Virus record (IMG/VR): IMGVR_UViG_3300042486_000938
Location: 1 to 24,121 of that record
Length of the DNA stretch: 24,121 nt
Reading direction: 5' to 3' (one strand)
Source of the DNA: a virus
The translations under genes and the position numbers were made by a program. The notes below the pieces were generated by a model. The model saw nothing but the letters and a program-made list of their open reading frames with translations, made no database searches and was not told the DNA's origin. This document shows, piece by piece, positions 1,156 through 21,707 of this stretch (position 1 is its first letter; each line of letters starts with the position of its first letter).

Positions 1156-2655
1156 TTAATTAAAAAGATCGTCTATATCCATATATTTAATATGATCAGG
1201 AAGTTTATCAATTTCTTTACTCCTTTCTATTTGTTTAGATAAACTTGCATCAAATTCTTTCTTTTGTCTTAACTCTTCCTCTTCTTTTCGTCTTTTTTCA
1301 TCTCTCGCTCGTCTTTCTTCTTCTTTGGACATAACAACCTCATCATCTCTAGTTTCTATATCGCTAGTACTTATTTTATCAATAACTTTGATTGCCGACC
1401 TTGGAATTGATTGATTTGTATATATTGCTCCGTAAGTCGCCATCGATTGAGGATCGAGATAAAATTTGTGATTTGGTAACTTTGTCAAATCAATTTCTAA
1501 AAGATAATAGTCCTTTATTTGATTTTGTCTTTCTTTACTTAAAGAATTCCATATTGCCCAAACCATACTTTTTGGGGTGTCTTTATTTTCATTTAAAAAT
1601 AGATAAATTCTGTCAGGATGATTAGATAATTTACTTTCAGATTTAAGTGTAAGACCCGTTTTCTTTATTCCATCAATGAAAATGTCAGGTGTAACGTGAA
1701 ATGCTTTAGTTGGATTAGTATTAACTTGTTTACCAAAGTTCGATTCATACCCGATCTGAACGTCGTCTTCTCCCAAATATTCGTTTACGTGGTTTGAATA
1801 TATTCGTCCTTTCATACCTGATAAACTAATATTAGTTGGGAACCATCCCCTTTCATACATAAACTTATTAAGATAATTTAAAGTATTTTGATCCAAACGA
1901 TCAACTACAATATCAAAACTTGACTTGAAGGGTCCAATTTTAACAAATTCAACTCTGTTACCATTTTTAATATTTGATGACCCTAATATGTTTGTTAATT
2001 CAGATTCAATTGTTTTTACATCAACTGTATTAATTTCTTCCTTTAACATTCTTCTTATGTTTTCATATTTCTTTTGAACTTCTTCTCGGACTATCCTCCT
2101 AATTGATTTATTCATAACATCTTTTACTTCTGAAATGTGTTTGAAGTGTACGTGATCAGGTTCCATCTCAAATGGTGGAGCATCATATCCACCAGCACCT
2201 TCTTTGGATTCTTTTTTCTTTTTGATTTTAACACAATTAGGATATCTTTTACCGAACATGGTCTTCATTCCTTTCTGAGTGTAACCTTTCCAACATCTCT
2301 CAGTAATCTCAGACTCATTTAATTTTTCACCACATTTCATCGTGTCGGTTGTAATAAATATACCGTTGAATTTTGGAAAAAAGTCGTTGATTAAATTATG
2401 TAGTTCTCGTTTTTTTATTCCATAAGTTTCATAACCCATATCCCAATGCGAAGGCGTCACATATAAAATGATTCGTATTTGTATTCCTTCCCTATGATGT
2501 AATTTAAACACCTCCCAATTAAACCCACAGATGTTATCACCAAAAACATCATCGACTAATCCAGAAATTAATTTGTCGTATTTAAGGTAAGGAGTCTTTA
2601 TGTCCTCTGAACTTTCCTCTCTTATTATTTGTTTTATATGTTGTCTAAGATTCAT
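1156..2655 (-). CDS. two-part capsid-targeted protein with possible ADP-ribosyltransferase-like C-terminal domain
   Basis: This gene encodes 499 residues. The N-terminus MNLRQHIKQIIREE is a variant of the peptide shared by the next four genes. It resembles the T4 capsid-targeting sequence and contains the [IL]xE cleavage pattern (IRE). Residues 15-110 are unknown. Residues 120-145 carry the phage-type peptide CWKGYTQKGM...YPNCVKI. At 181 a second start-like segment appears (MNKSIRRIVREE, then IRRMLKEE), so the protein looks like two tagged proteins fused. Residues 318-425 hold FHVTPDIFIDGIKKTGL, RIYLFL, YYLLEIDLT and NQSIPRSAI. Their order recalls ADP-ribosyltransferase folds of the H-Y-[EQ] type, but I see no decisive signature. 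Residues 443-485 are a charged coiled coil. It lies 35 nt after the previous gene, with its own TATTTAT element. The function is inferred, not shown. Confidence 0.8.
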   Translation of the reverse strand: MNLRQHIKQIIREESSEDIKTPYLKYDKLISGLVDDVFGDNICGFNWEVFKLHHREGIQIRIILYVTPSHWDMGYETYGIKKRELHNLINDFFPKFNGIFITTDTMKCGEKLNESEITERCWKGYTQKGMKTMFGKRYPNCVKIKKKKESKEGAGGYDAPPFEMEPDHVHFKHISEVKDVMNKSIRRIVREEVQKKYENIRRMLKEEINTVDVKTIESELTNILGSSNIKNGNRVEFVKIGPFKSSFDIVVDRLDQNTLNYLNKFMYERGWFPTNISLSGMKGRIYSNHVNEYLGEDDVQIGYESNFGKQVNTNPTKAFHVTPDIFIDGIKKTGLTLKSESKLSNHPDRIYLFLNENKDTPKSMVWAIWNSLSKERQNQIKDYYLLEIDLTKLPNHKFYLDPQSMATYGAIYTNQSIPRSAIKVIDKISTSDIETRDDEVVMSKEEERRARDEKRRKEEEELRQKKEFDASLSKQIERSKEIDKLPDHIKYMDIDDLFN

Positions 2656-2690: not shown

Positions 2691-3668
2691 TTAATCCCAA
2701 TAACCACCCTCAATAGTTTCCATCATCCATGAAATGATTGATAGTAACTCTTCATTAGTCAGGTTATTAATTGTTGTTAGGTATTGTTCATTTTTTTCTG
2801 TATCTCCGTATTCATCTTCATCATATCCCCATATTTCAACCGCAATTTGGTCCCTGTCTTGTACATGTATATCCTCAACATACTTAGTGTTACTCAATGG
2901 TAAATTTAAAGCGAAAAGAGATCCATAATCCCCATCACTCATACCATCATGTTCTAAAACAAATTGTCTGATATATTGTTTTAATATTTCTTTGGGGTTA
3001 TCTATTTGTTTTATCAACGACCTAACTTTATTAAAATCTAACCCTGTCATTTCAATAAAGTCGTATAGTCCGTCTTTTTCTATTAGTTTGATTAAAGATT
3101 TTTCTTTAATTGATGATTCGTTTAGACTTTGATTACCACCATAAAGTTTGTCGTGTAATTTTTCGGATTCAGTAAGAGAAAGAATACCACTATCGATTAA
3201 ATCAATGTCTTCCCCATTTATTTCTTTAACGGTAATATAATTTGTATTGAATATTCTACTATCTTCAAATTTACTTTTAAATGCACTATGTTGAGCTTCG
3301 TCGTATAAGTACTTAATCATAGACTTGAAGTCTTCGTTTTCTTCGGGTGTTAATTTGTTTTCATCATATAAAACATTTATTTCAGGCCAGTAGTTAGTCT
3401 TAGGAATATTACTATGTCTACCAATTATTTCATAATCTAAAGGAAATTTTATATCTCCATAAACAACAACAGGGTAATAAAAAGTAATTGTTCCTGTTAG
3501 TTTCTCAAATAAAGAACTCATTTCAGGATTGTCTTTGAATATCTTTTTTAGGTTTCCTATTCCACCAATTATGTCAGCAGCATCAAAAATATTACCATCT
3601 TTGATAACTTGTTTCAACTCTTGTTGGATTCTATTCTCTTTTAAGATATGTCTAATCAGTTTTCTCAT
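2691..3668 (-). CDS. capsid-targeted protein of unknown function
   Basis: This gene encodes 325 residues starting MRKLIRHILKEN, the shared capsid-targeting-like tag with an LKE site at residues 9-11. No enzymatic motif is recognised. Residues about 60-165 are mixed alpha/beta (TITFYYPVVVYGDIKFPLDY). Residues 186-240 hold a helical segment (LIKLIEKDGLYDFIEMTGL) that looks like a small modular unit. The C-terminus is acidic (WGYDEDEYGD) and ends in a helical region. The start overlaps the stop of the upstream gene by 4 nt (ATGA), so translation is coupled and the protein belongs to the packaged cassette. If the tag is cleaved after LKE, the mature protein would have about 314 residues. What it does after injection cannot be read from the sequence. 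Confidence 0.85.
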   Translation of the reverse strand: MRKLIRHILKENRIQQELKQVIKDGNIFDAADIIGGIGNLKKIFKDNPEMSSLFEKLTGTITFYYPVVVYGDIKFPLDYEIIGRHSNIPKTNYWPEINVLYDENKLTPEENEDFKSMIKYLYDEAQHSAFKSKFEDSRIFNTNYITVKEINGEDIDLIDSGILSLTESEKLHDKLYGGNQSLNESSIKEKSLIKLIEKDGLYDFIEMTGLDFNKVRSLIKQIDNPKEILKQYIRQFVLEHDGMSDGDYGSLFALNLPLSNTKYVEDIHVQDRDQIAVEIWGYDEDEYGDTEKNEQYLTTINNLTNEELLSIISWMMETIEGGYWD

Positions 3669-4297
3669 TGTCCTTTTAATCTTCTGTATTCAGCCCCGTT
3701 AAGTTGTTCTAAATAAGTTTGTTCAATCCATCCTGGTAATCTCTCTTCCCACCACAATATATCTTCCATTTTATATTTTCCGGTCTTAAGAATAAGTTCT
3801 ATCATTTCCTCCTCAGTTACATCATCAGGTTTTGTTATCGGTGGAAAACAAATATCACCGTTGTAATTAGTTATATAAAGTTCGGAAATGTAAATATCAT
3901 TTCTACCCATCTTTTTTTGAATTTCACCTAAATAAGTATCATCGAACCATTCTTCAAGAAGGTATCTTAAATAACTTACTCTCATAGGAAGATCTGTGGT
4001 TAAATCATCAAATACATTTTTTGGAACACTCATTAAACCCCTATTAAAACTCATTTCTTCAGTTTTTTTATTGTCGTCATCATCATTACCAAAATATAAA
4101 ACAACATCCAATATTTCTCTTCCGTTTTTACAAAAATCAAAACTATGTGTTGATTCATAAGATTTTTTATGATACATTTGCGCACCATCAAAATAGTTGT
4201 TTAACCATCTATAAACAAGTTGTTCTACCTTTGGTGTAGGTTTAGCGTATTTTCTACTAACCTCTTCTTTTAATATGTATCTAATTAATTCTTTCAT
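3665..4297 (-). CDS. capsid-targeted protein of unknown function
   Basis: I start this gene at the ATG at 4297, not at the GTG codon directly before it. That gives MKELIRYILKEEV, matching the tag of its neighbours, and a TGATG junction with the upstream stop. The product has 210 residues. No domain is recognised. It is acidic, with an Asp run (NDDDDN), aromatic-rich helices (LRYLLEEWFDDTYLGEI), an IYISELYIT strand, and a C-terminus WWEERLPGWIEQTYLEQL. The first 11 residues contain the candidate LKE protease site. It is translationally coupled on both sides within the cassette. The fold of the mature part is unknown, and no catalytic residues are evident. Confidence 0.85.
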   Translation of the reverse strand: MKELIRYILKEEVSRKYAKPTPKVEQLVYRWLNNYFDGAQMYHKKSYESTHSFDFCKNGREILDVVLYFGNDDDDNKKTEEMSFNRGLMSVPKNVFDDLTTDLPMRVSYLRYLLEEWFDDTYLGEIQKKMGRNDIYISELYITNYNGDICFPPITKPDDVTEEEMIELILKTGKYKMEDILWWEERLPGWIEQTYLEQLNGAEYRRLKGQ

Positions 4298-5742
4298 CAC
4301 ATTACTTCGTATAAAAACTTTTTAATGGTTCTAACAACTTTTTGTCTGTATGGGTCGTTCTCGTTTGAGAAGTTATCGATTGGTTCAGTGACATCGTTTT
4401 CAACAAGCATATTCAAAATAAGTCTTACTTGTCTTTTTTTATTGTCCCACATAGATACACCATAATATTCATCACCTACCTTAAAATATATCTCTTTAAA
4501 CTTAATACCCCCTTCAATATTAACCTCATTAATTTCATATCTTCTTCTTAGAAAGTTATAAACTTTTTGGTCAATCTCTTCAGATTCTTCATTAAGGACT
4601 TTTTTTATTATGTTTTCAAATATTGGTTTAGAAATCCTTTTTTTATAATTTTCTGGTCTACCTTTAGTTTGATTTATTGTTATAGTCTCACCATCATTAT
4701 TTCTAAACTTAAAAGATCCGTAATCAATTAAATTGTTAATAATTGAAAAGATTTTAATGTCTGGTCTTTGATTTTCTTGTTGCACATAGTTCACAACTCT
4801 TTCTATGGTATTCAAATTTTCATTTGGGTCTTTATCTGATTTAAATGAAAGTTGGTCTTTATAAAACTCATCTATTTTATTTCTTCTAAATACCTTTTTA
4901 AAAAGGTTTGGATATGTATTTTTGAAATCGTGTATGTTTATACTTCCACTCTGAATGATTTTCAATAGATCTTCATCACTATGATAATCTCTTTGTTTTG
5001 GGTGATTAATACCATATTTTTGAAATCCATTTTTCATTAAAAATTGATATAAATCGGGGTCTCTATTTTCAATTTCACTCGCACTATAGGTTTTATTGTC
5101 CTTAATGAATTTCCATATATTAGGTGAATTATATTTAGATGTGGTTCGTGTTGCTCCTAAAATACCTAACTTATCAGAAGAATTAAGCATTTCATAACCC
5201 ATATTATCATATTCACGATGTAACTGTGATTCAAGATTTTGAGCATCAACATCATTTATAAAATCTGTTGTAACTACTTTAAATTTAGGAGTTGGGTTAA
5301 GTCCTTTATCTTTTCTTTCCAATATGTACTTACCAACCGCAGTTATTCTTTTACGTTGAACGTCCGTATTACAATAAAAATTTGGTGACAACGTTTTTGT
5401 GTGTTTTTTGTTTCTTGTTATCACATTACAAGTTAAACCCACATACGCCTTTTTAGGTTCGTCTCCTTCTTCTTCCCAAGTATAAACATAGAGTTTTCTT
5501 TTACCTTCAGGTGCCGCATCATCAAATTCTAATTCATCCGCTAATCTTACAACCCAATTATTCTCTAATGCTTGCTTGTAATGTTTTTTTTCTTTCTTCT
5601 TAAGATCTTCAATGCTATAAACGCCTTCTTGAGTACCATGTAGTTCATCTTCGGCTCTTTTTACCAGAATATGCTTTTTGAAATCTTCATAGTTTTCAAA
5701 TCCATGTTGTTCTCTTAAAATACGTCTAATTAAATCCTTCAT
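4297..5742 (-). CDS. capsid-targeted GIY-YIG family nuclease
   Basis: This gene encodes 481 residues starting MKDLIRRILREQ, the cassette's shared tag. A GIY-YIG nuclease domain spans about residues 83-185. It has YVYTW (85-89, in the GIY position), YVG (100-102), the following R110 and H114, and the metal-binding Glu in NLESQLHREY (E171). Two helical repeats of the kind that accompany phage GIY-YIG and HNH enzymes as DNA-binding modules follow (WKFIKDNKTYSASEIENRDP and a second near 258-295). At 374-386 an internal tag-like segment, IFENIIKKVLNEE, precedes a separate domain of about 95 residues (KFKEIYFKVGDEYYGVSMW). The product probably cuts or nicks DNA. With the tag, a packaged nuclease attacking host DNA at injection is plausible. 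A homing endonuclease is the main alternative. Confidence 0.85.
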   Translation of the reverse strand: MKDLIRRILREQHGFENYEDFKKHILVKRAEDELHGTQEGVYSIEDLKKKEKKHYKQALENNWVVRLADELEFDDAAPEGKRKLYVYTWEEEGDEPKKAYVGLTCNVITRNKKHTKTLSPNFYCNTDVQRKRITAVGKYILERKDKGLNPTPKFKVVTTDFINDVDAQNLESQLHREYDNMGYEMLNSSDKLGILGATRTTSKYNSPNIWKFIKDNKTYSASEIENRDPDLYQFLMKNGFQKYGINHPKQRDYHSDEDLLKIIQSGSINIHDFKNTYPNLFKKVFRRNKIDEFYKDQLSFKSDKDPNENLNTIERVVNYVQQENQRPDIKIFSIINNLIDYGSFKFRNNDGETITINQTKGRPENYKKRISKPIFENIIKKVLNEESEEIDQKVYNFLRRRYEINEVNIEGGIKFKEIYFKVGDEYYGVSMWDNKKRQVRLILNMLVENDVTEPIDNFSNENDPYRQKVVRTIKKFLYEVM

Positions 5743-7400
5743 TATTTAACTTTGAACGGGTTTGTTTTAATAAATTGTTTTGTAATTCTCATCACACCTT
5801 CGTTAACGCTTTTACTTTGTCTTACTTTATCTTTCAACACATTAACAAATTCACCTTGGATGTCCTTAACTAAATCCACAAATGATCTATCTTTAACTTG
5901 TTCAACAGGAGTTATTGGTCCCGTTTCTTTTTCAATTTGTTTTGTTGCAACTTCAATTTGTTTGTCAGATAATCTACCATACTTAATTAACTTACCTTGC
6001 AAATCTTTTACAAACTTATTGTTTCCATTGTAGTTGGTTATTGGTAATAAATTTGCATCAACCTCTCTTTTAGCATTGTTAAAACTTTTAGTGTACATAA
6101 AGTTTAATCCAGATATGTTTGTAATACATTTGTGTCCACCTGAGTTAGCATTAACAACGTCAAAACCATTCACTGATACTTTGTTTAGTAGTGATTTTTG
6201 GTTTGGTGTTAGGGTCTTATATAAATTTTTTGATATTTCATCTAACATCTTAGCCAAACTTTCACCACCTTCCATATTAAATGATGGTCTATCACCGTAA
6301 ATTGCCATCATATCTCTGAAAGTAAAACCTACAGAATTTTCACCCGCTTCTTGTTCCGATATTCTTTTGAGAGTTCCAAATGTGATCTTTTGGTTTTCTA
6401 ACTCCCCTTTAAATTTATCTAATACCTCATCCTTAATTTGACCTAAATCAATACCTTTAATTGCCCTATCTTTTTTGAATGGGTTACAAGACGCTTGTAC
6501 CATACCCATCGGCATACCTGTCACTAAAAACTCGGCATCAGGAAAGTTACTAAACGGTACATATCTATCATATGCTCCAGTTTTAGTCGTAGAACCAAAC
6601 CCATATTGAGAAATTATACCATCAGAATATTCAAGACCTTTACCTTCTTTTCTTGATTCTTTATATGCTTGAGAATGTTTTGTAATCGTATCAATATCAG
6701 CATAACCTTTTTCTTTAATTTGATCCTTGATATTCATCAAAATACTCAATAAAGATGGTTTTGCGTTTAGTACAATATTAGAAAGGAACCCTGGTTTGTT
6801 TTTGAATGCCAATAACAACTTATTCGCCACCAATCCCATTTTTCTTTTATTTTCTTTAAACCCTTTGTCTCTATCTATTTTGAATAAGTAGTTCATCACA
6901 TTCTCAGGTGTGATATCATACTTAGCATAGTCAGCCGAATCGATCATGGAAATTGTTTCAATGTCTTCAGTTGGAAATATGTCTTTAGGTGATATTGTTT
7001 GTGAGATGGTTTCAACGTTTGATCTTGAGGATTTGAAGTTTGTTGCTGTCCCTTGTTCTACACCAGCTTGAGTATCGTGGTGGTCAGTGTGGATAACAAA
7101 CATTGGTTTACCATGAGCAAAATCCACTAACACCGGCATGATATCACCTTCACCTTCAGGTTTTTTAATAGCAAACTCCTTAGATCCGTATTGTATTATT
7201 TCTGCATCAACAACTTTAATACCATGTTGTTCAAGATAGTCTTTCATCGCCAATGCGGTTGTAACACCATCTAAATCTTGGTGGAAATATATTTTCGCCA
7301 TTTTATATCGTTTGGCGAGATCTTTAATGTCTCTTATACCACTTTCATTCAAAAGTCTTTGACCTTCTTCTTTTAATATTTTTCTAATTAAATTTTTCAT
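5742..7400 (-). CDS. capsid-targeted DHH/DHHA1 family phosphoesterase
   Basis: This gene encodes 552 residues starting MKNLIRKILKEE, the clearest copy of the shared tag. The DHH superfamily motifs are present in order: FHQDLDG (39-45), the Asp in LVDFAHG (91-97), the signature HTDHHD (104-109), and IDSADY (153-158). The C-terminal part has SGGHKC (420-425), the GGH motif of DHHA1 domains that binds substrate. Members of this family (RecJ, NrnA, GdpP-type) use two Mn/Mg ions to hydrolyse phosphodiesters in single-stranded DNA, short oligonucleotides, pAp or cyclic dinucleotides. The sequence does not say which applies here. It is first in the cassette, with a TATTTAT element 4 nt before the ATG and a terminator just upstream. 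An injected enzyme degrading defence signals or nucleic-acid ends is an inference. Confidence 0.88.
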   Translation of the reverse strand: MKNLIRKILKEEGQRLLNESGIRDIKDLAKRYKMAKIYFHQDLDGVTTALAMKDYLEQHGIKVVDAEIIQYGSKEFAIKKPEGEGDIMPVLVDFAHGKPMFVIHTDHHDTQAGVEQGTATNFKSSRSNVETISQTISPKDIFPTEDIETISMIDSADYAKYDITPENVMNYLFKIDRDKGFKENKRKMGLVANKLLLAFKNKPGFLSNIVLNAKPSLLSILMNIKDQIKEKGYADIDTITKHSQAYKESRKEGKGLEYSDGIISQYGFGSTTKTGAYDRYVPFSNFPDAEFLVTGMPMGMVQASCNPFKKDRAIKGIDLGQIKDEVLDKFKGELENQKITFGTLKRISEQEAGENSVGFTFRDMMAIYGDRPSFNMEGGESLAKMLDEISKNLYKTLTPNQKSLLNKVSVNGFDVVNANSGGHKCITNISGLNFMYTKSFNNAKREVDANLLPITNYNGNNKFVKDLQGKLIKYGRLSDKQIEVATKQIEKETGPITPVEQVKDRSFVDLVKDIQGEFVNVLKDKVRQSKSVNEGVMRITKQFIKTNPFKVK

Positions 7401-8150: not shown

Positions 8151-8810
8151 TTACCTTATGAATTTGGTTTCGTAGTAAGTCGCAACATAGTCAGCACCTA
8201 TAAGTGGATATTGGACAATCACTTGATCAACATCTTGATAATATTCCTCAGTTTCGTAGTATATTTCTGCCTGTGGTAAGAATTCATCAATATATGTATT
8301 TATTGCTTCATTAACATCGACATTTTCATCATTTTTTGTTGCTGATATTGCAACAACGGTATTATCAATATAATATGCCTCTGGATCATAATGTCTGGTT
8401 TTTAACCCAATAGATTCTATTTGGATAATCCATCGTTTGTATCCGATAAACGGAGTTCCTGTTGTAAATTTGATTTCTCTAACAGAATCAAATACATTTT
8501 GAATTTGATTTTTTACCTTTTCGTTAAGATAAAATTTTGGTTGTTCGTCCCATAATATTTTAGTATCTAATCTAATACCAACATAATCTTCAAACTCCGT
8601 TAAAATATCTAAAAGTTCGTCATCCACTATTGCCCAATAATAAGAAACATCATTTGGATTTTCTATTTTAAATCCAATAGGATAAGAAGGTTTGAAGAAA
8701 TTACTAACAATTTTTTCCCCAATTATAACAGGAATACATTTTAACCCATGAAGATTAATTTCATTCCCCGCAAACCTTTTGAATAATTTTAATATCTTTT
8801 CTTGATCCAT
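8151..8810 (-). CDS. hypothetical protein next to the lysozyme
   Basis: This gene encodes 219 residues without signal peptide or membrane segment. It is acidic overall and rich in aromatic residues, especially Tyr near the C-terminus (YYETEEYYQDVDQV). No family is recognised. The start overlaps the stop of the lysozyme gene by one base (TAATG), so the two are translated from one message. Co-transcription with a lysozyme would fit a structural or lysis-associated role, but no motif supports either. A short hairpin-like ATAAG/CTTAT pair follows the stop, without a convincing T run. Confidence 0.75.
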   Translation of the reverse strand: MDQEKILKLFKRFAGNEINLHGLKCIPVIIGEKIVSNFFKPSYPIGFKIENPNDVSYYWAIVDDELLDILTEFEDYVGIRLDTKILWDEQPKFYLNEKVKNQIQNVFDSVREIKFTTGTPFIGYKRWIIQIESIGLKTRHYDPEAYYIDNTVVAISATKNDENVDVNEAINTYIDEFLPQAEIYYETEEYYQDVDQVIVQYPLIGADYVATYYETKFIR

Positions 8811-9736
8811 TACACAAACATTTTTGCCTCATTTTCTCTACGAATTTTTAGACCAGGGAAGTCATCAAACAAACTGCTACTTGTTTGTAAGATTAATTCT
8901 CTTGCTTCGTCAAAGTCCCCTCTTTTAATTGATTGTAGGAAGTCTTTTGTTCTTATACCTCTTCCCATGTTATATGTCATAGAAATTAAAGTATTATACA
9001 TTCCTTGTGTAAGATTTGGTTTTATACCTTCTTTTTCCCAATCATTTAATATTTCATTTACAATACCTTCAGCAATTTTAACGTCATCTCTTAATAACAT
9101 CTCAGCTTGTTTTTTTGTAATTCTTGTCTTACCTGGTATAATTTTTTCATAATTGGGTAAAAAATCATATCCTTCTCTTTCCCCTTTGAATACTGCGTGT
9201 CCATAACCAATCGTATAAGCATTGTCACCAAGATCATAAGCAACTAAGGCAGGTTCACCTTTGTGTCTTATCGATCCTTCTTCCCATCTTAAATGATCAA
9301 GAAGTTCTTTTGATGATCTTCTTATTCTTGGTGCTTCATTTACTTCAGGATTAGCAACATCGATTGCTTGTTTTTCAGTCTTAACTACCTGTTTTAATTG
9401 TGGGTCTAATATATTTTGTATTTGATTAAGTGAGAGTATACCTATGAATGAATACATCACATATCTCATAATTTTTCGTTTAACTTCTTCAGGTAAGTTT
9501 TTAATCTTATCCTTTAAAATCTGAACATATTTTTTAACATCTTCTTTGGTTTTAACCCACATTTTGGAAAAGTCTATTTCATCCTTTACATTTGTAAAGT
9601 CCCATTCCATGTCAGGCTCTGTCTTTCCATCTTCAGTGAGAATGGATAGTTTCATTACTACCTCATCTAATATATTTTCACAATTAATATAAGATTCAAT
9701 AATTTTATATTGATCTTCTCGAATAGATAATTTCAT
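8810..9736 (-). CDS. GH24 phage lysozyme with N-terminal extension and membrane segment
   Basis: This gene encodes 308 residues. The C-terminal domain (about 140-308) is a T4-type lysozyme (GH24), which cleaves the MurNAc-GlcNAc bond of peptidoglycan. WEEG supplies the catalytic Glu (E153), the AYDLGDNAYTIGYGH stretch supplies the Asp (D168 or D171), and TIGYGH the Thr (T175), matching the E-D-T triad. SMTYNMGRG is the usual downstream motif. T4 lysozyme has 164 residues, so this protein carries about 140 extra at the N-terminus, with one hydrophobic segment at about 90-105 (MRYVMYSFIGILSL) before the catalytic part. That arrangement suggests a membrane-tethered or signal-anchor endolysin, or a virion-associated lysozyme. 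The first residues, MKLSIREDQ, include an IRE triplet. Confidence 0.9.
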   Translation of the reverse strand: MKLSIREDQYKIIESYINCENILDEVVMKLSILTEDGKTEPDMEWDFTNVKDEIDFSKMWVKTKEDVKKYVQILKDKIKNLPEEVKRKIMRYVMYSFIGILSLNQIQNILDPQLKQVVKTEKQAIDVANPEVNEAPRIRRSSKELLDHLRWEEGSIRHKGEPALVAYDLGDNAYTIGYGHAVFKGEREGYDFLPNYEKIIPGKTRITKKQAEMLLRDDVKIAEGIVNEILNDWEKEGIKPNLTQGMYNTLISMTYNMGRGIRTKDFLQSIKRGDFDEARELILQTSSSLFDDFPGLKIRRENEAKMFV

Positions 9737-10134: not shown

Positions 10135-11094
10135 TTACCTTCTGCCAAAATTTTTATTAAGATTTTCTAATTTAGCTTTCTTAAGTGCGGTGTTTAATAC
10201 TTTGGTAGTTTGGTGATTTGTATTTCTATTAACTTGAGTATAGTCAATTGTTTTTGATTGTTTAGTTTCATTAACTGATATTGGTTTATCACTAAAAATG
10301 GATTCTAATAACTTATGTTTTTTCTCTTTTAACTCTCTCTCCAAATTAATTTCTTCTGTTTGTGTTATCGATTGAGATAAAGTTTTTGTTTTGATATCCA
10401 AGAATTGGTATTCACCCTTTTTCATTTCACCCAAAATCACACCGGCCTTTTTGTTCTTACTAATCCCAAAAAAGTGAGCTCTCATCTTTGACGCATATCC
10501 AGTATCTTTTCTTCTTGTTAAACTATTATCGTGTAATCTCCTGTGAAATAAAACATAAGGTGTTAAATTTATTTTTTTGTTAAACCTATATATTCTTCCC
10601 ATAAAATCCGAGTCGGCAGCAACTTTCCATCCCTCAAACCCATTCATATTTAAAAATAAATCTTTTTTAATACCAAATACACCTTCACCATATAACGCAT
10701 CATCATAACTACTAAAGTTTCTTTGACATTCATGGTCTTTGAAGTTTAGGAACTTCGGTTTTACGCAATCGTATTTATTAAGACTATTATCGATCTCATT
10801 CATCAGACTCTCCAACATGATGTCGTCCGAATCAAAGAATAACAATTTATCATACTTAGACAATTCAGATAATGTATTCTTAATCAGGTAAGGCCCACCA
10901 TTTTCAGTAAAATAATAAAAAAAATAGTTTTCAGGGAATTCTTTAGTTTTCACATACTCTAAAGTTTTTTCACAATTATCAATTCCTATCAATACTTCAA
11001 ATTCATTATCGTATTTGTTGTTATTGATTGATACAATCAGTTCATCAAAAAAATCAACAGAATCAAACGTTGGTATTATAATTGATAAACTCAT
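10135..11094 (-). CDS. family 2 (GT-A) glycosyltransferase with C-terminal extension
   Basis: This gene encodes 319 residues. The N-terminal 200 residues are a GT2-type GT-A domain. MSLSIIIPTF is the nucleotide-binding first strand, LLFFDSDD (DSD at 88-90) is the DxD metal/nucleotide-sugar motif, and GVFGIKKDLFLNMNGFEGW with ADSDFMGRIYR fits the acceptor-side motifs. The reaction is transfer of a sugar from a nucleotide donor, with unknown donor and acceptor. Residues about 240-319 form a charged, low-order tail containing KTIDYTQVN and ending LNKNFGRR. A similar tail ends the upstream glycosyltransferase (KTINYEKIN, LNKKGGRG). Its start overlaps that gene's stop by 4 nt (ATGA). It is the last of five consecutive glycosyltransferase-like genes. 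Confidence 0.85.
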   Translation of the reverse strand: MSLSIIIPTFDSVDFFDELIVSINNNKYDNEFEVLIGIDNCEKTLEYVKTKEFPENYFFYYFTENGGPYLIKNTLSELSKYDKLLFFDSDDIMLESLMNEIDNSLNKYDCVKPKFLNFKDHECQRNFSSYDDALYGEGVFGIKKDLFLNMNGFEGWKVAADSDFMGRIYRFNKKINLTPYVLFHRRLHDNSLTRRKDTGYASKMRAHFFGISKNKKAGVILGEMKKGEYQFLDIKTKTLSQSITQTEEINLERELKEKKHKLLESIFSDKPISVNETKQSKTIDYTQVNRNTNHQTTKVLNTALKKAKLENLNKNFGRR

Positions 11095-12023
11095 CCCCTT
11101 CCCCCTTTTTTGTTGAGTTTTTGTACTATAGATGTATTTGTTCTTAAAGATGAATTACCACCTATTATCTTAGGTTTTGTTGCTATGTGTACAGGTGTGG
11201 AGTTAAATATTTGGTTTATTTTTTCGTAATTAATTGTTTTTTCAGTTTTTTCTATTGTTGAGGCAACTTTAATTCTCTCCTCTATTGGAACAAAACCTTG
11301 TTCGTATAAACTTTTTTGATTTTGATTAATTTCAGGTAATATAACTGACTTATCAAATGTTGAATTTGCCACTAATGTTTGTAAAACATCGTTCTTTGAC
11401 TCAACGTCGTAAATCGTTGTCTTTTGTTGGATGTATTTAATATAACCACTTTCGTGTCTTAAACACAATATTTCTATATTATTTTCATAACAATATTTAC
11501 CAACCCAAACATCCGCCATATTTGGGTAGTTAAAATAACTGATAGGTAATTTTATTAGATTTGTATGAAAACACATAACACCAGTACCACCAAATTGGAC
11601 TGGAACATTTTTACCTACGTGATTAAAACAAGAATATCTTTCAGATGCGTTTGCGTAATAACTTTTTATTGGGAACACATTAAAGTTTCTACCGTGTAGT
11701 GTTATAACCTTTGTGTTACCATATTCTTTACACTTGGCAATCATATATTCCACATAGTTCGGCGGATAAATTAAATCATCGTCAATTGTTAGGTAATAAC
11801 CATCACTCTTATCTAACGCGTAGAATTTCATTGCATCACCTAATGAATTATCACTTAAAATTAGGTTTACTTTATCGTGATATAATATTTCAGGAATGTC
11901 ACCATCATATGAATTTAACGATACGTTAATGACATCACACTGATCAATAATACTCTCCAAACTTTTAACTAAAGAGTCAATACGATTATATGAAGCAACA
12001 TTCGCTATTATAGTTTCACTCAT
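11091..12023 (-). CDS. glycosyltransferase (GT-A fold, DxD) with C-terminal extension
   Basis: This gene encodes 310 residues. The N-terminus ETIIANVASYNRIDSLVKSL is the GT2-type nucleotide-binding start, and YYLTIDDDLIYPP (DDD at 81-83) is the DxD motif. The central part (LHGRNFNVFPIKSYYANASE, then FGGTGVMCFHTNLIKLP) is shared in style with phage and bacterial sugar transferases. The C-terminal 80 residues are a polar tail with KTINYEKIN, matching the tail of the next gene. Both ends overlap neighbours by 4 nt, so translation is coupled. The acceptor is unknown. Virion decoration or modification of host surface glycan are both possible. Confidence 0.83.
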   Translation of the reverse strand: MSETIIANVASYNRIDSLVKSLESIIDQCDVINVSLNSYDGDIPEILYHDKVNLILSDNSLGDAMKFYALDKSDGYYLTIDDDLIYPPNYVEYMIAKCKEYGNTKVITLHGRNFNVFPIKSYYANASERYSCFNHVGKNVPVQFGGTGVMCFHTNLIKLPISYFNYPNMADVWVGKYCYENNIEILCLRHESGYIKYIQQKTTIYDVESKNDVLQTLVANSTFDKSVILPEINQNQKSLYEQGFVPIEERIKVASTIEKTEKTINYEKINQIFNSTPVHIATKPKIIGGNSSLRTNTSIVQKLNKKGGRG

Positions 12024-12718
12024 ATAACTATTAATTTATTTTTCTTTCTTTCTAATTTATTCATTTGTGATTCATGATCACCATGAGTTACAAATGTATT
12101 CTTAGTGTGATACATACCTTTACCTAAGTTATGTAATCTAATTGATAACTGCCACCCAACACCAGAACTTAGGTTTGGATTTGTATCCCATCTTGATGGT
12201 GGGATTGGTTCAATAGAATAATTTAATGTTTCAAAAAACTTTTTTTCACAAATAAAATGTAATTCAACCCATTGTGTTTTAATTACTTCACCACGTTCTC
12301 TGGGGGTATAATTCGTCCAATTACTTGAGTTGGTTCTATGGTCGGTTAAAAAACTTAAAGATATCTTACTATTGTCATCAATATTCTCATATCTATCAAC
12401 TAATCCATTAAAAAAATTATCAATAATTTTTACATCGTCCTGTAAATAAACGTAGTATTTTGAGTTCACATTCTTAACGTATTTGAAGGATGAGTCAATA
12501 ACTTTCCAAAACTTTTTTTTACCCATATTTGGATAATACTTGATAAATTTAACGTCGCTTGGTATGTCATATATTTCGGAACTACCGTCATCAATGACAA
12601 TAATTTTTATTTTAAAATCATTTTTTTGGGCTCTAATTTGATTAATAAGTTCACTCAACATATCAGGTCTGTTGTGTGTTGTTATTAAAATACAAAAATC
12701 AAACTCATTTTGACTCAT
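12020..12718 (-). CDS. family 2 glycosyltransferase
   Basis: I start this at the ATG at 12718 (MSQNEFDFCILITTHNRPDM). It forms a TAATG junction with the preceding stop, like many junctions here. An ATG 21 nt upstream (12739) would overlap the neighbour by 22 nt. The product then has 232 residues. CILITTHNRP and IIVIDDGSS (near residues 41-49) are the classic GT2 first strand and the Asp that contacts the nucleotide. YVYLQDDV gives the DxD-like motif (residues 92-95). VGWQLSIRLHNLG and the final THGDHESQM fit the C-terminal GT2 region. No tail is present, unlike its two downstream neighbours. Confidence 0.85.
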   Translation of the reverse strand: MSQNEFDFCILITTHNRPDMLSELINQIRAQKNDFKIKIIVIDDGSSEIYDIPSDVKFIKYYPNMGKKKFWKVIDSSFKYVKNVNSKYYVYLQDDVKIIDNFFNGLVDRYENIDDNSKISLSFLTDHRTNSSNWTNYTPRERGEVIKTQWVELHFICEKKFFETLNYSIEPIPPSRWDTNPNLSSGVGWQLSIRLHNLGKGMYHTKNTFVTHGDHESQMNKLERKKNKLIVI

Positions 12719-13326
12719 TACCCGAGTATTGAATGACATTTATTTAGAAAGAAACTATCTCTTTGTTTGAACCTAGATTCAAATGCGTGGTATATCTCAT
12801 TACCATATGTCGTACCATATCCAAATGTGATTGGTCCGTCTAAAGGAGCGTAAGGTGATTCAACATGACTTGGGTATAACATTCTTATTTCAACACCTTT
12901 TTCTCTGGCAGAATGTGTCATTTCTGCACCACAATCAGATCTTAAATTAGTTTCAAATGAAGGTCTACCTAAAATATTGAAAGTCTTGATGCTGAATACC
13001 ATAAATGCTGGTGCGGCGTGAATCAATGGATTTGTTAGTTTTACCGCTTTTTGAGCCAAGGAAAAAATACCAACATTATCTTTACACCAATTAACGGCTT
13101 TATGAATTATTGTATCATTCAATGGTATTGAGTCAATGTCAAATAAAACAATTATTTCATTTTCATCATGTATAGACGAAAGGTAGTCATCAACCGCCTT
13201 TCCATGTGTCACCCAATTTTTAACATAAATTTGATCTATATCATATCCAAATTTATTAAACACTTTTTTTTGTAATTCCGCAAATTGTGGGTTAACTATT
13301 TCATTGTAAAATGTTATTACTCTCAT
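12718..13326 (-). CDS. glycosyltransferase-like protein with DxD motif
   Basis: This gene encodes 202 residues. MRVITFYNEIVNPQFAELQK starts the domain, and IIVLFDIDSIPLN (DID at 63-65) is a GT-A type DxD motif. The downstream segment GIFSLAQKAVKL...HAAPAFMVFSIKTF resembles the part of GT-A proteins that contacts the acceptor. It is shorter than full GT2 enzymes and lacks the usual PTxxR first strand, so it may be a divergent or minimal transferase. It is the second gene of the five-gene sugar block and follows a 44-nt gap with its own TATTTAT element. Confidence 0.72.
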   Translation of the reverse strand: MRVITFYNEIVNPQFAELQKKVFNKFGYDIDQIYVKNWVTHGKAVDDYLSSIHDENEIIVLFDIDSIPLNDTIIHKAVNWCKDNVGIFSLAQKAVKLTNPLIHAAPAFMVFSIKTFNILGRPSFETNLRSDCGAEMTHSAREKGVEIRMLYPSHVESPYAPLDGPITFGYGTTYGNEIYHAFESRFKQRDSFFLNKCHSILG

Positions 13327-13341
13327 ATGAAATTAAATATA

Positions 13342-13348
13342 ATAAATA
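13342..13348 (-). promoter_or_regulatory. TATTTAT element inside the glycosyltransferase block
   Basis: The minus strand reads GTTATTTATTAT 15 nt before the ATG at 13326, in the only sizeable gap of the glycosyltransferase block (13327-13370). It may restart transcription for the four downstream transferases. Confidence 0.38.
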
Positions 13349-13370
13349 ACATTTCTTTATAAACATAACG

Positions 13371-13928
13371 TTAGTGTCTCACGTTATAGAATATTTCAGG
13401 TGTTATAATAAAATTATGTGTGGTGTTTCTTAATTTATTAATAAATTCATAATCTTCAGAATCGCTATTATCATCAAACAAAATGTTTGTGAACTTGTTT
13501 TTGAAGGATATTGATATCCCAACTCTATTAATTTTAATATCATTTCTAGTTAACTCAGGATATATCTTACCGTCAGTCGTTTGCATTCTCCAAACAATAA
13601 AATCGTATGATGTGTATTTCTCTACAAGTGTCTTAACGTAATCTTGGTGTAGGGTATCATCGTCATCCAAAAAACCAATCCATTCAGTATTACACATTTT
13701 AATACCTTCATTTCTTACTAACCCGGCATTACCGTGTCTTTCTCCCTTCTTACCTAACTTATTTAATTTAATAATTTTGATTCGTGGATCATCAAATGTT
13801 TTACCATCAACCCCATCATAAAGTAAAAGACATTCCCAATTTGGGTTTGTTTGATTTAATAAAGATTGGATTGTGTTATCAATAGTAGGTCTATTAATGG
13901 AGGGAATAATAAATGTGATTAAACTCAT
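13371..13928 (-). CDS. family 2 glycosyltransferase, short form
   Basis: This gene encodes 185 residues. SLITFIIPSINRPTIDNTIQ is the GT2 first strand and helix, CLLLYDGVDG replaces the usual DDGS, HGNAGLVRNEGI is the conserved G-x-x-x-ARN-like motif, and WIGFLDDDDTL (88-91) is the DxD region. It lacks most of the C-terminal acceptor half of longer GT2 enzymes and ends soon after HNFIITPEIFY, so it may be a minimal enzyme or act with a neighbour. It overlaps the zinc-ribbon gene upstream by 4 nt (ATGA). Confidence 0.83.
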   Translation of the reverse strand: MSLITFIIPSINRPTIDNTIQSLLNQTNPNWECLLLYDGVDGKTFDDPRIKIIKLNKLGKKGERHGNAGLVRNEGIKMCNTEWIGFLDDDDTLHQDYVKTLVEKYTSYDFIVWRMQTTDGKIYPELTRNDIKINRVGISISFKNKFTNILFDDNSDSEDYEFINKLRNTTHNFIITPEIFYNVRH

Positions 13929-14236
13929 TTGTTATGTTTTTTTCTACCTTGACAATGAGCTCTCTGACTAAAACCTTTTGGGTTATTACAGTTAATTGAT
14001 TTTTTATAATTTTCAGACCATTTCTCCTCAAGAGGTTCTTTCTCTAACTTATTTTTCCAAAACTTGAATAGGTTTTCTTTATCGTATTCTTGTTTTTTGT
14101 GATCCCAACCACAGTCGTGACATAAATAAGGGTGTCTATCACCTTCCTCCATTTTCCAAGAGTGTTCACACTTTTCACATTCAATATTTTTATTGAATAC
14201 TCTGTCGGCTTGTTTTTCTGTTAACATTATTTTCAT
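13925..14236 (-). CDS. small zinc-ribbon protein with phage C-terminal basic motif
   Basis: This gene encodes 103 residues. A treble-clef or zinc-ribbon site is formed by C20-x2-C23 and C39-x2-C42 (ECEKCEHSW and PYLCHDCGW). The C-terminus, CNNPKGFSQRAHCQGRKKHNK, is a short Cys/His/basic module that I recall as recurrent in phage proteins, where it often ends a protein. The first residues, MKIMLTEKQ, contain an LTE triplet. No catalytic residues are seen, so binding to nucleic acid or protein is the likely role. The gene is sandwiched by 4-nt overlaps between an acidic hypothetical gene and a glycosyltransferase gene. Confidence 0.8.
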   Translation of the reverse strand: MKIMLTEKQADRVFNKNIECEKCEHSWKMEEGDRHPYLCHDCGWDHKKQEYDKENLFKFWKNKLEKEPLEEKWSENYKKSINCNNPKGFSQRAHCQGRKKHNK

Positions 14237-16435: not shown

Positions 16436-17257
16436 GTGAAAATTACAGAAAACAAACTAAAGGTTTTTACCAAACAAATATATAACCATATTATTGATGA
16501 ATATGGTCAGCAGAGATTTGCAACACCTCAAGAAGTATACAACACGATTGTAAATTATAATGATGAAATTCTCAAATTACTGACAAGTAGAATGGATCCT
16601 GACACAAAAAGGGCAATATCATTTATGGTATATCTTTTTTCTGAAAACAAAAATCTTGATGAGATTGTTAAGTATGTTTTAGATAATTACACTTATATGG
16701 ACGTCATTCACTACGATAATTTTGAGACTAAACTTATTGAATGCTCTGAATGTAGAGGTGATGGTAATGAAACTTGTGATAAATGTGACGGAAGTGGTCA
16801 GGAATATTGTGATGTCTGTGATGGTACCGGTCTTATTAACTGTGATTATTGTGATGGGTCTGGCGAAATTGATGGTGATACATGTGATAATTGCATTGGT
16901 AGTGGTGAAATAGATTGTTATAATTGCGATGGTAATGGTAATGTTCCTTGTAATGATTGTAATGGAGAGGGTGATCTAAATTGCGCATATTGTGATGGAA
17001 ATGGTGAAGTAGAATCAGATAATAAATACTTTGATAAGTATGTTGGTATTATCACAAGCATATCACCTGATGTACGTAATTTACCTACTGACACAATATT
17101 AACAGATGATCAAGCCGACACACTTTTAGATTCAAAAATGATTGGTCGCCTTGATCTTGAGGACAGTCAAGTTGACGAATACGAACCTATGGCATTTAAA
17201 GGTGATGGATCCGGTACGGATATGTGGGTTATCGAATATAAGGAAGCAAGTTTCTAA
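16436..17257 (+). CDS. DnaJ-type zinc-finger repeat protein without J domain
   Basis: This gene encodes 273 residues from a GTG start. A stop lies in frame just upstream and the next ATG is 52 codons in, so GTG is the only sensible start. Residues 103-190 hold eight CxxCxGxG units (starting at C103, 114, 125, 136, 150, 161, 172 and 183), spaced 11 residues apart except one gap of 14. DnaJ has four such units binding two zinc ions, so this protein could bind four. No J domain (HPD) is present. Flanking regions are a helical N-terminal 100 residues and an acidic C-terminus. It may act as a holdase, redox or assembly factor. It is the only plus-strand gene, and its stop overlaps that of the convergent gene. 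Confidence 0.85.
   Translation: MKITENKLKVFTKQIYNHIIDEYGQQRFATPQEVYNTIVNYNDEILKLLTSRMDPDTKRAISFMVYLFSENKNLDEIVKYVLDNYTYMDVIHYDNFETKLIECSECRGDGNETCDKCDGSGQEYCDVCDGTGLINCDYCDGSGEIDGDTCDNCIGSGEIDCYNCDGNGNVPCNDCNGEGDLNCAYCDGNGEVESDNKYFDKYVGIITSISPDVRNLPTDTILTDDQADTLLDSKMIGRLDLEDSQVDEYEPMAFKGDGSGTDMWVIEYKEASF
16742..17005 (+). repeat. tandem 33-bp coding repeats encoding zinc-finger units
   Basis: Eight imperfect repeats, mostly 33 bp, each encode one CxxCxGxG unit with the core TGTGAT...GATGG. One copy is followed by a 9-bp longer spacer. The repeats are diverged at third positions, so the array is old or under protein-level selection and is not a recent expansion. Confidence 0.8.
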
Positions 17258-17780: not shown

Positions 17781-18278
17781 TTATTTATTTATTAAATCTT
17801 TATCGGCGATTATAATTAGATCTTCACCAAAGAAAGGATCAATCTTTTTAATCTCACTTTTAATTTCAGGATAATCAATCCAAACTTTAACACCTTCATT
17901 CTCGGGACTATAGTCATTATCAACCAAGTATTGCACCACAGAATCTTCCTCTAATGTTATAAAACCGTGAGCAAAGTATCTTGGTACATACACCTCATCA
18001 CCCTCGTTCATTTCAAAAAAGAATACTTTATTGTAGTCCTCCGATACGGTTCTCATATCAATCACAAAGTCCAATATCTTACCTGAGATCACTTTAATTA
18101 ACTTGGCTTGAGCATACTCATTCTTTTGGAAGTGTAGTCCCCGTAAGGTATATTTACGGGGATTTACACTGATGTTACTCTGAACCCAGTTCTTATCAAG
18201 TTTATCTAACATTAAAGGACTGAATGCCCCTCGTTTGTCTCTGAATACTTTGTTCTCAATAAAACGTGCCTTTTCCAT
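17781..18278 (-). CDS. rfbC: dTDP-4-dehydrorhamnose 3,5-epimerase family (RmlC-like)
   Basis: This gene encodes 165 residues of the RmlC cupin family. RDKRGAFSPL, NPRKYTLRGLHFQKNEYAQAKLIKV (with the catalytic-base His, H49), GDEVYVPRYFAHGF, then DYSPENEGVKVW and the C-terminal IIADKD match the family blocks in order. RmlC epimerises C3 and C5 of dTDP-4-keto-6-deoxyglucose on the way to dTDP-rhamnose, and relatives make other deoxysugars. The protein is slightly short (most have 180-190). No rmlA, rmlB or rmlD gene is in the window, so it would work on host intermediates or with genes elsewhere in the genome. It joins the metallophosphoesterase gene by TAATG. A strong hairpin lies inside the coding sequence (18132-18169). 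Confidence 0.88.
   Translation of the reverse strand: MEKARFIENKVFRDKRGAFSPLMLDKLDKNWVQSNISVNPRKYTLRGLHFQKNEYAQAKLIKVISGKILDFVIDMRTVSEDYNKVFFFEMNEGDEVYVPRYFAHGFITLEEDSVVQYLVDNDYSPENEGVKVWIDYPEIKSEIKKIDPFFGEDLIIIADKDLINK
18132..18169. other. strong inverted repeat inside the epimerase gene
   Basis: The arms CCCCGTAA (18139-18146) and TTACGGGG (18154-18161) pair perfectly around a 7-nt loop and extend by T-A. After a 1x2 internal loop the stem continues with GTGTA/TACAC. About 14 bp pair in total. No T run follows on either strand, so it is not an intrinsic terminator. It encodes the conserved NPRKYTLRGLHF block, so protein constraint may explain part of it. Confidence 0.7.
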
Positions 18279-20677: not shown

Positions 20678-21126
20678 ATTTTGATAATCGCTTCGTGAAT
20701 TGCCTTCTTTAATGCCGACGATACCGTCATCTTTTCAAACGGCATCATTCCCTCTCTTACTTCAATCATCATCGCTCTTACTTCTGTTGACGACTCACCA
20801 ATTCCCTCATAACACTTCCCATCATAATGTATTCTAACACCAACCTGAGTTAGAGATTCTGTTCTCTCAACACCAACAACTCTGATCGTTGTCTTTGGAA
20901 GTCCGAAGTAAAACACTTCAACATCCATGTCTTTCCCATCATCAGACAGACAGAACTTTTCGGATAATTCTTCTTCAACAATTTGTTTAATACCAAATCT
21001 GATGTCTCTGTTTCCAAGTTCTCTTAACTTCGCCGTGTTGTATACAGAATCCACATAAACACATTGTTGTGCTGTTACAATGTTACCAACTAGTAACATA
21101 CCAAGTAGTAAGATTATATTTCTCAT
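20674..21126 (-). CDS. secreted hypothetical protein
   Basis: This gene encodes 150 residues with a signal peptide (MRNIILLLGMLLVGNIVTAQ). The mature part is alpha/beta: a helix (FGIKQIVEEELSEKF), strands (DVEVFYFGLPKTTIRVVGVE and VGVRIHYDGKCYEGIGESS), then a C-terminal helix (VSSALKKAIHEAII). The fold recalls small periplasmic domains of secretion or cell-wall accessory lipoproteins, but I cannot name a family. It overlaps both neighbours by 4 nt, so it is made together with the secreted nuclease and the zincin-like protein. Confidence 0.75.
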   Translation of the reverse strand: MRNIILLLGMLLVGNIVTAQQCVYVDSVYNTAKLRELGNRDIRFGIKQIVEEELSEKFCLSDDGKDMDVEVFYFGLPKTTIRVVGVERTESLTQVGVRIHYDGKCYEGIGESSTEVRAMMIEVREGMMPFEKMTVSSALKKAIHEAIIKI

Positions 21127-21707
21127 TTTATTTTATATTTTGTAAAGTCAGTTGATAATGGTTTCTCATTCTTGAAGTAATACTTCTCTACGGTTTTTCC
21201 GTATTTGATTGTTTTGTAGTATCCATCTGGTATAACAGCCCCTGTAGGTAAGACCACCGACTTAGGTGTAAATACACAACGGATCTCTACAGTTACAGAT
21301 TGAGTCTTTGCAAGTTCTCTTTCACGAGCTTCCAATAATCTCCAAGTAGTTCTGTTTAAGTTCTCTTGTTGTAATGAACAATTAAGATAGGTGAATGTTC
21401 TATACATCATATCTCTTGTACAACTAAAGTTCGCCGCTGGTGCTAAGTGACCTTTATCATATGGATTGTTCTCATAGTCTTTGTTGTCTGATGTTAAGAT
21501 TGAATCACAAACATAGAAGTCCATACCCTTTCTTGATGCCGTTCCATTTGGACACGGGACATTATACCTAATAAATTTTGGTTGTTGTAATTTTTCAGAA
21601 TAAACAATCTCAAACATATCTGTCTTGATGTAGATTGAGTCTCTTAATGCTTTCTGACCGAAAACGAATAGTGGTAATAATAATAAAAATAATAATTTAA
21701 TTCGCAT
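21123..21707 (-). CDS. secreted DNA/RNA non-specific endonuclease (NUC/EndoG type)
   Basis: This gene encodes 194 residues. Signal peptide MRIKLLFLLLLPLFVFGQ. YDKGHLAPAANFSC (DKGH at 84-87) is the DRGH-type motif with the general-base His, and FTYLNCSLQQENLNRTTWRLLE is the block that carries the Mg-binding Asn (N118) and the conserved Trp and Glu. Together they define the beta-beta-alpha-metal nuclease family of Serratia nuclease and EndoG. The protein is shorter than the usual 230-250 but has both core motifs. It would cut DNA and RNA in the periplasm or medium. In an infected cell that could recycle released nucleic acid or destroy incoming competitor DNA (inference). Confidence 0.85.
   Translation of the reverse strand: MRIKLLFLLLLPLFVFGQKALRDSIYIKTDMFEIVYSEKLQQPKFIRYNVPCPNGTASRKGMDFYVCDSILTSDNKDYENNPYDKGHLAPAANFSCTRDMMYRTFTYLNCSLQQENLNRTTWRLLEARERELAKTQSVTVEIRCVFTPKSVVLPTGAVIPDGYYKTIKYGKTVEKYYFKNEKPLSTDFTKYKIK

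Follow-up and report, generated by a model that had tools for sequence, protein, structure and literature searches.

In phage T4, the prohead protease gp21 cleaves behind Glu at L/I-X-E, and the internal proteins carry N-terminal capsid targeting sequences of 10-19 residues that are removed by gp21; T4 Alt is an injected ADP-ribosyltransferase (ART) (PMC9026906). Head-packaged phage ARTs are well described (PMC9503650). The Glu-specific prohead protease of phiKZ and SPN3US cuts many packaged and ejected proteins, some of them at several sites (PMC10052503, PMC5694885). Polyvalent proteins of phages and conjugative elements are multi-effector chains delivered by the virion, in which ART domains are common and in which an embedded MPTase is believed to release the units (PMC5512222). 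A literature search found no description of cargo polyproteins that are resolved by a prohead protease.

The window analyzed here is a stretch of 24,121 nucleotides from the IMG/VR virus record IMGVR_UViG_3300042486_000938. It contains a composite gene for a protein of 499 amino acids (Table 1), which begins with MNLRQHIKQIIREESSED and includes MNKSIRRIVREEVQKKYENIRRMLKEEINTVD. A Pfam scan gave no family match to this protein (E ≤ 0.1), and a PHROGs search matched solely the stretch around the peptide CWKGY. An IMG/VR scan for relatives yielded 185 related places, 80 of which were kept. Residues 1-13 (MNLRQHIKQIIRE/E; a slash follows the Glu of a site) fit the pattern of T4-type internal head proteins, whose N-terminal propeptide is short (about 7-20 residues) and ends in L/I-x-E. 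The module behind this tag has homologs as an internal module in L004 and L007 as well, and in an alignment most of the stand-alone relatives of the N-half carry a Glu with S, G or E behind it at the position of KLNE/S.

Table 1 Features of the 499-aa gene and of its tagged neighbors in the window (slash, position of a cut site or module junction)
Feature	Position	Strand	Basis or remarks
Composite, polyprotein-like 499-aa gene	1156..2655	-	ORF; both halves occur separately in relatives
N-terminal tag MNLRQHIKQIIREE, aa 1-14	2614..2655	-	L/I-x-E motif; profile score 26.8; predicted cut after E13
First putative cargo module, aa 14-114	2314..2616	-	homologous to stand-alone tagged proteins L008, L010, L011, L015
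Predicted cut site KLNE/S, aa 112-115	2311..2322	-	just upstream of CWKGY peptide
CWKGY short conserved peptide module CWKGYTQKGMKTMFGKRYPNCV, aa 120-142	2230..2298	-	85-97% identity across dozens of otherwise unrelated proteins
Second short peptide module EGAGGYDAPPFEMEPDHVHFKH, aa 152-173	2137..2202	-	followed by HISE/V; also in L003, L004, L017
Internal tag copy 1 MNKSIRRIVREE, aa 181-192	2080..2115	-	site V-R-E/E; tag profile
Internal tag copy 2 KKYENIRRMLKEE, aa 195-207	2035..2073	-	site MLKE/E after aa 206; tag profile
Small alpha/beta domain, aa 211-307, ferredoxin-like arrangement	1735..2025	-	AlphaFold model; weak structural matches
Predicted ADP-ribosyltransferase-fold domain, aa 306-434	1354..1740	-	VIA-align and Foldseek on model
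Charged long C-terminal helix, aa 444-499	1159..1326	-	model helix 242-281; conserved in L001
325-aa tagged neighbor	2691..3668	-	modules A and H (first and last) of relatives' 8-module polyprotein; joined at LNE/S, aa 182-185
211-aa tagged neighbor	3665..4300	-	same module behind internal tag in L007, L076
481-aa tagged neighbor	4297..5742	-	region with GIY-YIG-matching relatives, internal tag, 95-aa module
Internal tag of 481-aa protein, FENIIKKVLNEES	4582..4620	-	predicted cut after aa 385
552-aa tagged neighbor	5742..7400	-	weak DHH similarity; LKE/E at aa 11, LNE/S at aa 19

A sequence-only reading of the locus had placed a second copy of the targeting peptide at residues 181-208 (window 2115..2032, MNKSIRRIVREEVQKKYENIRRMLKEEI). 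A tag profile of 12 residues, built solely from 47 N-terminal tags of other phages, confirmed this copy and resolved it into two tag-like helices in tandem, MNKSIRRIVREE and KKYENIRRMLKEE. The N-terminal tag itself scored 26.8, KKYENIRRMLKE (aa 195-206) 14.9 and VMNKSIRRIVRE (aa 180-191) 8.6, and the next best place in the protein scored -4.9. When residues 31-499 were shuffled 20,000 times, a score of 14.6 was reached in 17 cases and 8.4 in 186; in five related phages, 1 of 821 untagged proteins reached 14.6 and 7 reached 8.4. The internal copies score far above chance and, as the profile finds three tag-like places with few shuffles as high, the internal copy is real. The tag at the start of the L001 protein also aligns with copy 2. 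A stand-alone protein (L020:5256-6803) opens with two tandem tags (MNLQQTIRKILREEFKSHNNLQETVRKVLREK) that resemble the tandem internal tags.

Splits had been proposed near residues 191 and 207. The strict L/I-x-E site in this stretch is MLKE/E after residue 206; the site at residue 191 reads V-R-E/E and departs from the motif. Further L/I-x-E sites lie at module edges, namely KLNE/S after residue 114 and HISE/V after residue 176. The two mature proteins expected in the same reading are probably too few, since conserved sites flank the CWKGY peptide and suggest at least three products.

Both halves of the protein exist apart. Equivalents of residues 1-142 are stand-alone proteins with an N-terminal tag of their own in L008, L010, L011, L012 and L015, and all five end in NCVKKKK; the earlier remark that the CWKGY...NCV peptide often ends phage proteins is borne out by many relatives, such as the 143-aa protein of L008. 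The peptide is nearly invariant across many loci with wholly different partner modules, and it is also found in cyanophage proteins adjoining terminase or tail-fiber genes and in a cyanophage protein annotated 'virion protein'. A second mobile short peptide (consensus EGxGGYxAPxFEMxPDHxHFKH) stands before or after the CWKGY peptide depending on the protein: L003 has it in the same place as the 499-aa protein, and L004 and L017 have it ahead of CWKGY.

In L001, a different protein begins with the equivalent of about residues 193 to 499 (55% identical), directly behind its own tag MNLQEQISRIQEMMGVIKEE. In two huge-phage genomes (LR756502 and LR756501) the C-half is a separate protein behind another type of tag, for example MIYSFGKFINLLNE/G. 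L003 has a first half that is 68% identical and the same NCVKIKKKK...PDHVHFKH junction, which leads into an internal tag, MKNLKESIKNILKEE, and then into an unrelated module. Because the halves exist apart, and because L003 has an internal tag and a different module at this point, the internal tag marks a module seam. Such comparisons strongly support the earlier view that the gene is a fusion of separately tagged units, split versions of which occur in related phages. The exact two-half architecture was found intact in no other contig. A search for relatives with residues 209-499 alone found none, and a two-sequence profile again recovered only the copies of L001/L002 type.

Four upstream genes of the same array (2691-7400, minus strand) begin with the tags MRKLIRHILKEN, MMKELIRYILKEE, MKDLIRRILREQ and MKNLIRKILKEE. 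Adjacent tagged genes are tightly packed, with overlaps of 1-4 bases. The 481-aa protein has an internal tag of its own (site FENIIKKVLNE/ES); L189 and L190 have its C-terminal 107 residues as a tagged gene that stands alone, L179 encodes its two pieces in separate tagged genes, and L003 has an extra module between the corresponding parts. The 325-aa protein has relatives in the form of long chains, with 966 aa (L182), 871 aa (L183 and L185), 874 aa (L186), 1009 aa (L018) and 1018 aa (L065), with a shorter one of 436 aa in L161. When the long chains are split at [LIM]xES, conserved segments result, with lengths of about 185/93/110/132/109/95/101/141 residues. The second segment is missing in L183 and L186 and the sixth in L185 and L187; L161 keeps the first, the seventh and the last, and the 325-aa protein of the window keeps the first and the last, joined at LNE/S. 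Elsewhere, several such segments occur as tagged genes in their own right. The polyproteins of the relatives reach up to about eight modules, and whole segments are gained and lost at [LIM]xES. A tblastn search with the 966-aa polyprotein gave zero matches among 50,697 phage records, so that only metagenomes are known to contain the multi-module form.

We took all internal stretches of one protein that match a stand-alone tagged protein; after removal of redundancy, 115 borders were left. At 91 of them an [LIM]xE occurs no more than 8 residues from the predicted border, compared with 34.0 ± 4.4 expected for random positions in the same proteins, and [LIM]xES is found at 45 (expected 5.9 ± 2.4). 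The control motifs were not enriched at the 115 borders (xD 17, expected 30; xK 32, expected 31; xN 23, expected 29; xS 16, expected 21). As alignments may include the tag itself, a stricter subset of 55 borders was used, with the alignment starting after the tag and the site required outside the alignment; here [LIM]xE was counted at 31 (13.2 ± 3.0 expected) and [LIM]xES at 16 (2.2 ± 1.5 expected). As the borders have common ancestry, both sets of figures overstate independence. Some of the 24 borders without [LIM]xE were aligned via repeats or weak matches. [LIM]xE is short and also found within folded domains, so accessibility must decide cutting. Over the whole set of tagged proteins, [LIM]xES is only slightly denser (1.5-2.0 against 1.15 per 1000 aa), and the signal is concentrated at module borders and in most scaffold-position proteins.

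At least three other types of N-terminal tag were observed, (I)TESQLxxLIKxIIxE, MNLQEQISRIxxMMGVINE and NEERNRILNLHESATKNxYLxSE, for instance in L119:7577-8434, L007 and L128. Several unrelated tag types, with the ends ILKE/E, MMGVINE/S, LLNE/G and RILNLHESATKN..SE/Q, have the final [LIM]xE alone in common. The window also encodes a lysozyme-family endolysin (8810-9736; Pfam PF00959, E 2.6e-14) whose N-terminal extension is unusual; it starts with MKLSIREDQYKIIESYI and resembles the ITESQ-type tags.

The 24-kb window is a fragment without protease or capsid genes. A Peptidase_S77 protease is encoded in 16 of the 35 relative contigs searched and a Gp23-type capsid protein in 16, and the 272-kb contig G030 has protease, capsid protein and a 1018-aa polyprotein together. 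The capsid propeptide of five relatives ends in ..ENQAS(F/H/Y)LINE/A. The proteins in the scaffold position, between protease and capsid protein, hold 21 [LIM]xES in 2438 aa over five genomes (2.8 expected); they are homologous and hence not independent, and four of the five are rich in [LIM]xES, the other having a single site. The full-length relatives are T4-like, with a T4-type prohead protease, a capsid protein whose propeptide has the LINE/A end and mostly motif-rich scaffold-position proteins. The host is probably a member of the Bacteroidota. Of the listed isolates that infect Bacteroidota, Flavobacterium phage immuto has the nearest capsid protein (about 41%). Its capsid propeptide is similar (..QIVSE/A) and some of its N-termini are tag-like; no polyprotein was seen in the roughly 128 of 160 kb that were read. 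In the window, a DNA/RNA non-specific endonuclease adjoins a lectin C-type/Ig_7 protein (21123-23406), and these two functions are also adjacent in immuto.

The C-half was modeled on its own with AlphaFold, as MAFFT had misplaced its relatives in the 499-aa alignment. The mean pLDDT of the model was 69, with mostly 50-90 in the ART-fold part. The small domain at residues 211-307 gave weak matches (VIA-align Z about 6) to EpsM, PulM and ribosomal S6. Residues 306-434 matched KptA/Tpt1 (1wfx/8tg3) with a VIA-align Z of 10.4 (1wfx rmsd 3.0, 96 aligned), and Foldseek matched this domain to KptA with E 6e-6. The modeled C-half thus contains an ADP-ribosyltransferase-fold domain, which may be enzymatically active. 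All nine aligned modules share H320 (H118 of the model), which stands where the fold begins, at the position of the conserved NAD-binding histidine. KptA/Tpt1 proper is a two-lobed enzyme with an RNA-binding N-terminal lobe and a catalytic Arg/His set; the matches to KptA cover essentially just its C-terminal lobe, and the N-terminal lobe was not found in the structural list, which could miss it. For one related tagged protein that stands alone, the match to Pfam ART-PolyVal lies under the curated cut-off.

Other genes of the window were noted in passing. A small ORF (13925-14236) encodes a zinc-ribbon-like stretch, CEKCEHSWKMEEGDRHPYLCHDCGWD, which recurs in L020, L031, L035 and L040, and a short C-terminal peptide, KKSINCNNPKGFSQRAHCQGRKK. 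A plus-strand ORF with DnaJ-like CxxCxG repeats (16436-17257) lies amid minus-strand genes. Several glycosyltransferase-like genes and a dTDP-4-dehydrorhamnose 3,5-epimerase (10135-13928 and 17781-18278) suggest a surface-glycan module.

The border motif matches the L/I-x-E of the T4 protease, and the relatives encode protease, capsid and scaffold. We therefore have good reason to believe that the product of the 499-aa gene is a T4-like phage's cargo polyprotein, whose units are cut by a gp21-type prohead protease and injected. The chain would be synthesized whole, each unit opening with a short basic amphipathic helix that ends in [L/I/M]-x-E. The N-terminal and internal tags would dock the chain onto the prohead core, and the protease would then cut after Glu at residues 13, 114 and 206, and perhaps also at 176 and 191. 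A small N-terminal domain, a segment with the CWKGY peptide and a C-terminal protein with the ADP-ribosyltransferase-fold domain would be released, remain inside the head and, like T4 Alt, pass into the host together with the DNA. For the predicted cutting by a prohead protease, already proposed from sequence, motif and gene context provide good though indirect support. For the environmental group as a whole we lean, somewhat less firmly, towards polyprotein cargo with interchangeable effector modules, each preceded by a tag or a site. These modules would be separated within the prohead and delivered together by injection, and the cut sites would double as the seams of module gain, loss and shuffling.

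It is unlikely, in our opinion, that the 499-aa chain is packaged as an uncut fusion, with the N-terminal tag targeting all of it and the internal tag a disused vestige. Stop loss between such tightly packed tagged genes would easily fuse them, and the first internal copy has drifted to V-R-E; however, [LIM]xES sites persist at the borders of the polyproteins. In the single polyprotein modeled (L183; a weak model with mean pLDDT 59 and pTM 0.25), 5 of 6 such sites fall within low-confidence segments, taken as linkers, which make up 30% of the chain. The internal tags also retain helix and site yet lose a Met that would be useless to them: only 1 of the 17 best-scoring internal tags of relatives has Met at the start position, and the others have D, N, R, E, P, K, T, G, I or S. 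The Met start noted for the internal copy is present here at residue 181 and is not a general feature. The tag seems to be kept as a peptide and not as a translation start, which makes internal initiation at Met181, giving two products without proteolysis, very improbable; many other borders, moreover, have just [LIM]xES and no start codon.

A sequencing or assembly artefact that fused two adjacent genes might be suspected in a metagenomic contig with overlapping tagged genes. The independent contig L003 crosses the same junction into an internal tag, so the read-through is not an artefact of one assembly, and with internal tags present in many contigs and proteins we can give this explanation next to no weight. 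The tags are basic amphipathic helices whose link to the head is drawn from context, and they could be a common assembly or nucleic-acid-binding helix of a gene family, with the Glu incidental. This is hardly probable, as several unrelated tag types agree only in the final [LIM]xE, the capsid propeptide ends alike, and most scaffold-position proteins hold several such sites.

If the prohead-protease reading is true, many injected effectors would be loaded in a fixed ratio from one translation unit with one or few tags, and they could be swapped through recombination at protease sites. From tags or [LIM]xE/S seams one could derive a rule for recognizing injected effectors, counter-defense proteins among them, in the sequences of thousands of unannotated environmental phages. 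The role of the prohead protease would widen from propeptide trimming to the resolution of polyproteins, in a manner that resembles the polyprotein use of animal RNA viruses but is built around a capsid maturation protease.

The predicted system resembles T4 internal proteins and Alt in its short N-terminal propeptide with a predicted cut after Glu at L/I-x-E, in the gp21-type protease and gp23-type capsid protein of the relatives, and in the ART fold of a putative cargo. In T4, by contrast, each cargo is a single protein that has one propeptide at its N-terminus (from Alt a C-terminal propeptide is removed as well), whereas here the units are strung together with internal tags and sites. The ART-fold lobe is like that of the KptA/Tpt1 RNA 2'-phosphotransferases, the model matching over about 100 residues, but the C-terminal lobe alone is matched and the domain follows a small alpha/beta domain in a phage cargo. 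As in polyvalent proteins (PMC5512222), several domains lie in one chain that would be split into units, with delivery by the virion predicted here; two or more domains per chain are seen in the C-half model and in the relatives. Polyvalent proteins have their own MPTase and large domains, while the units here are about 95-185 aa with a prohead-protease motif at their borders. Pfam found no peptidase family in the 499-aa protein (E ≤ 0.1) or in L182, L065, L018, L007, L076, L042 and L168 (E ≤ 0.05), searches that could miss a divergent one. Finally, the extra cuts of phiKZ and SPN3US remove propeptides, whereas the sites described here separate homologs of independent proteins.
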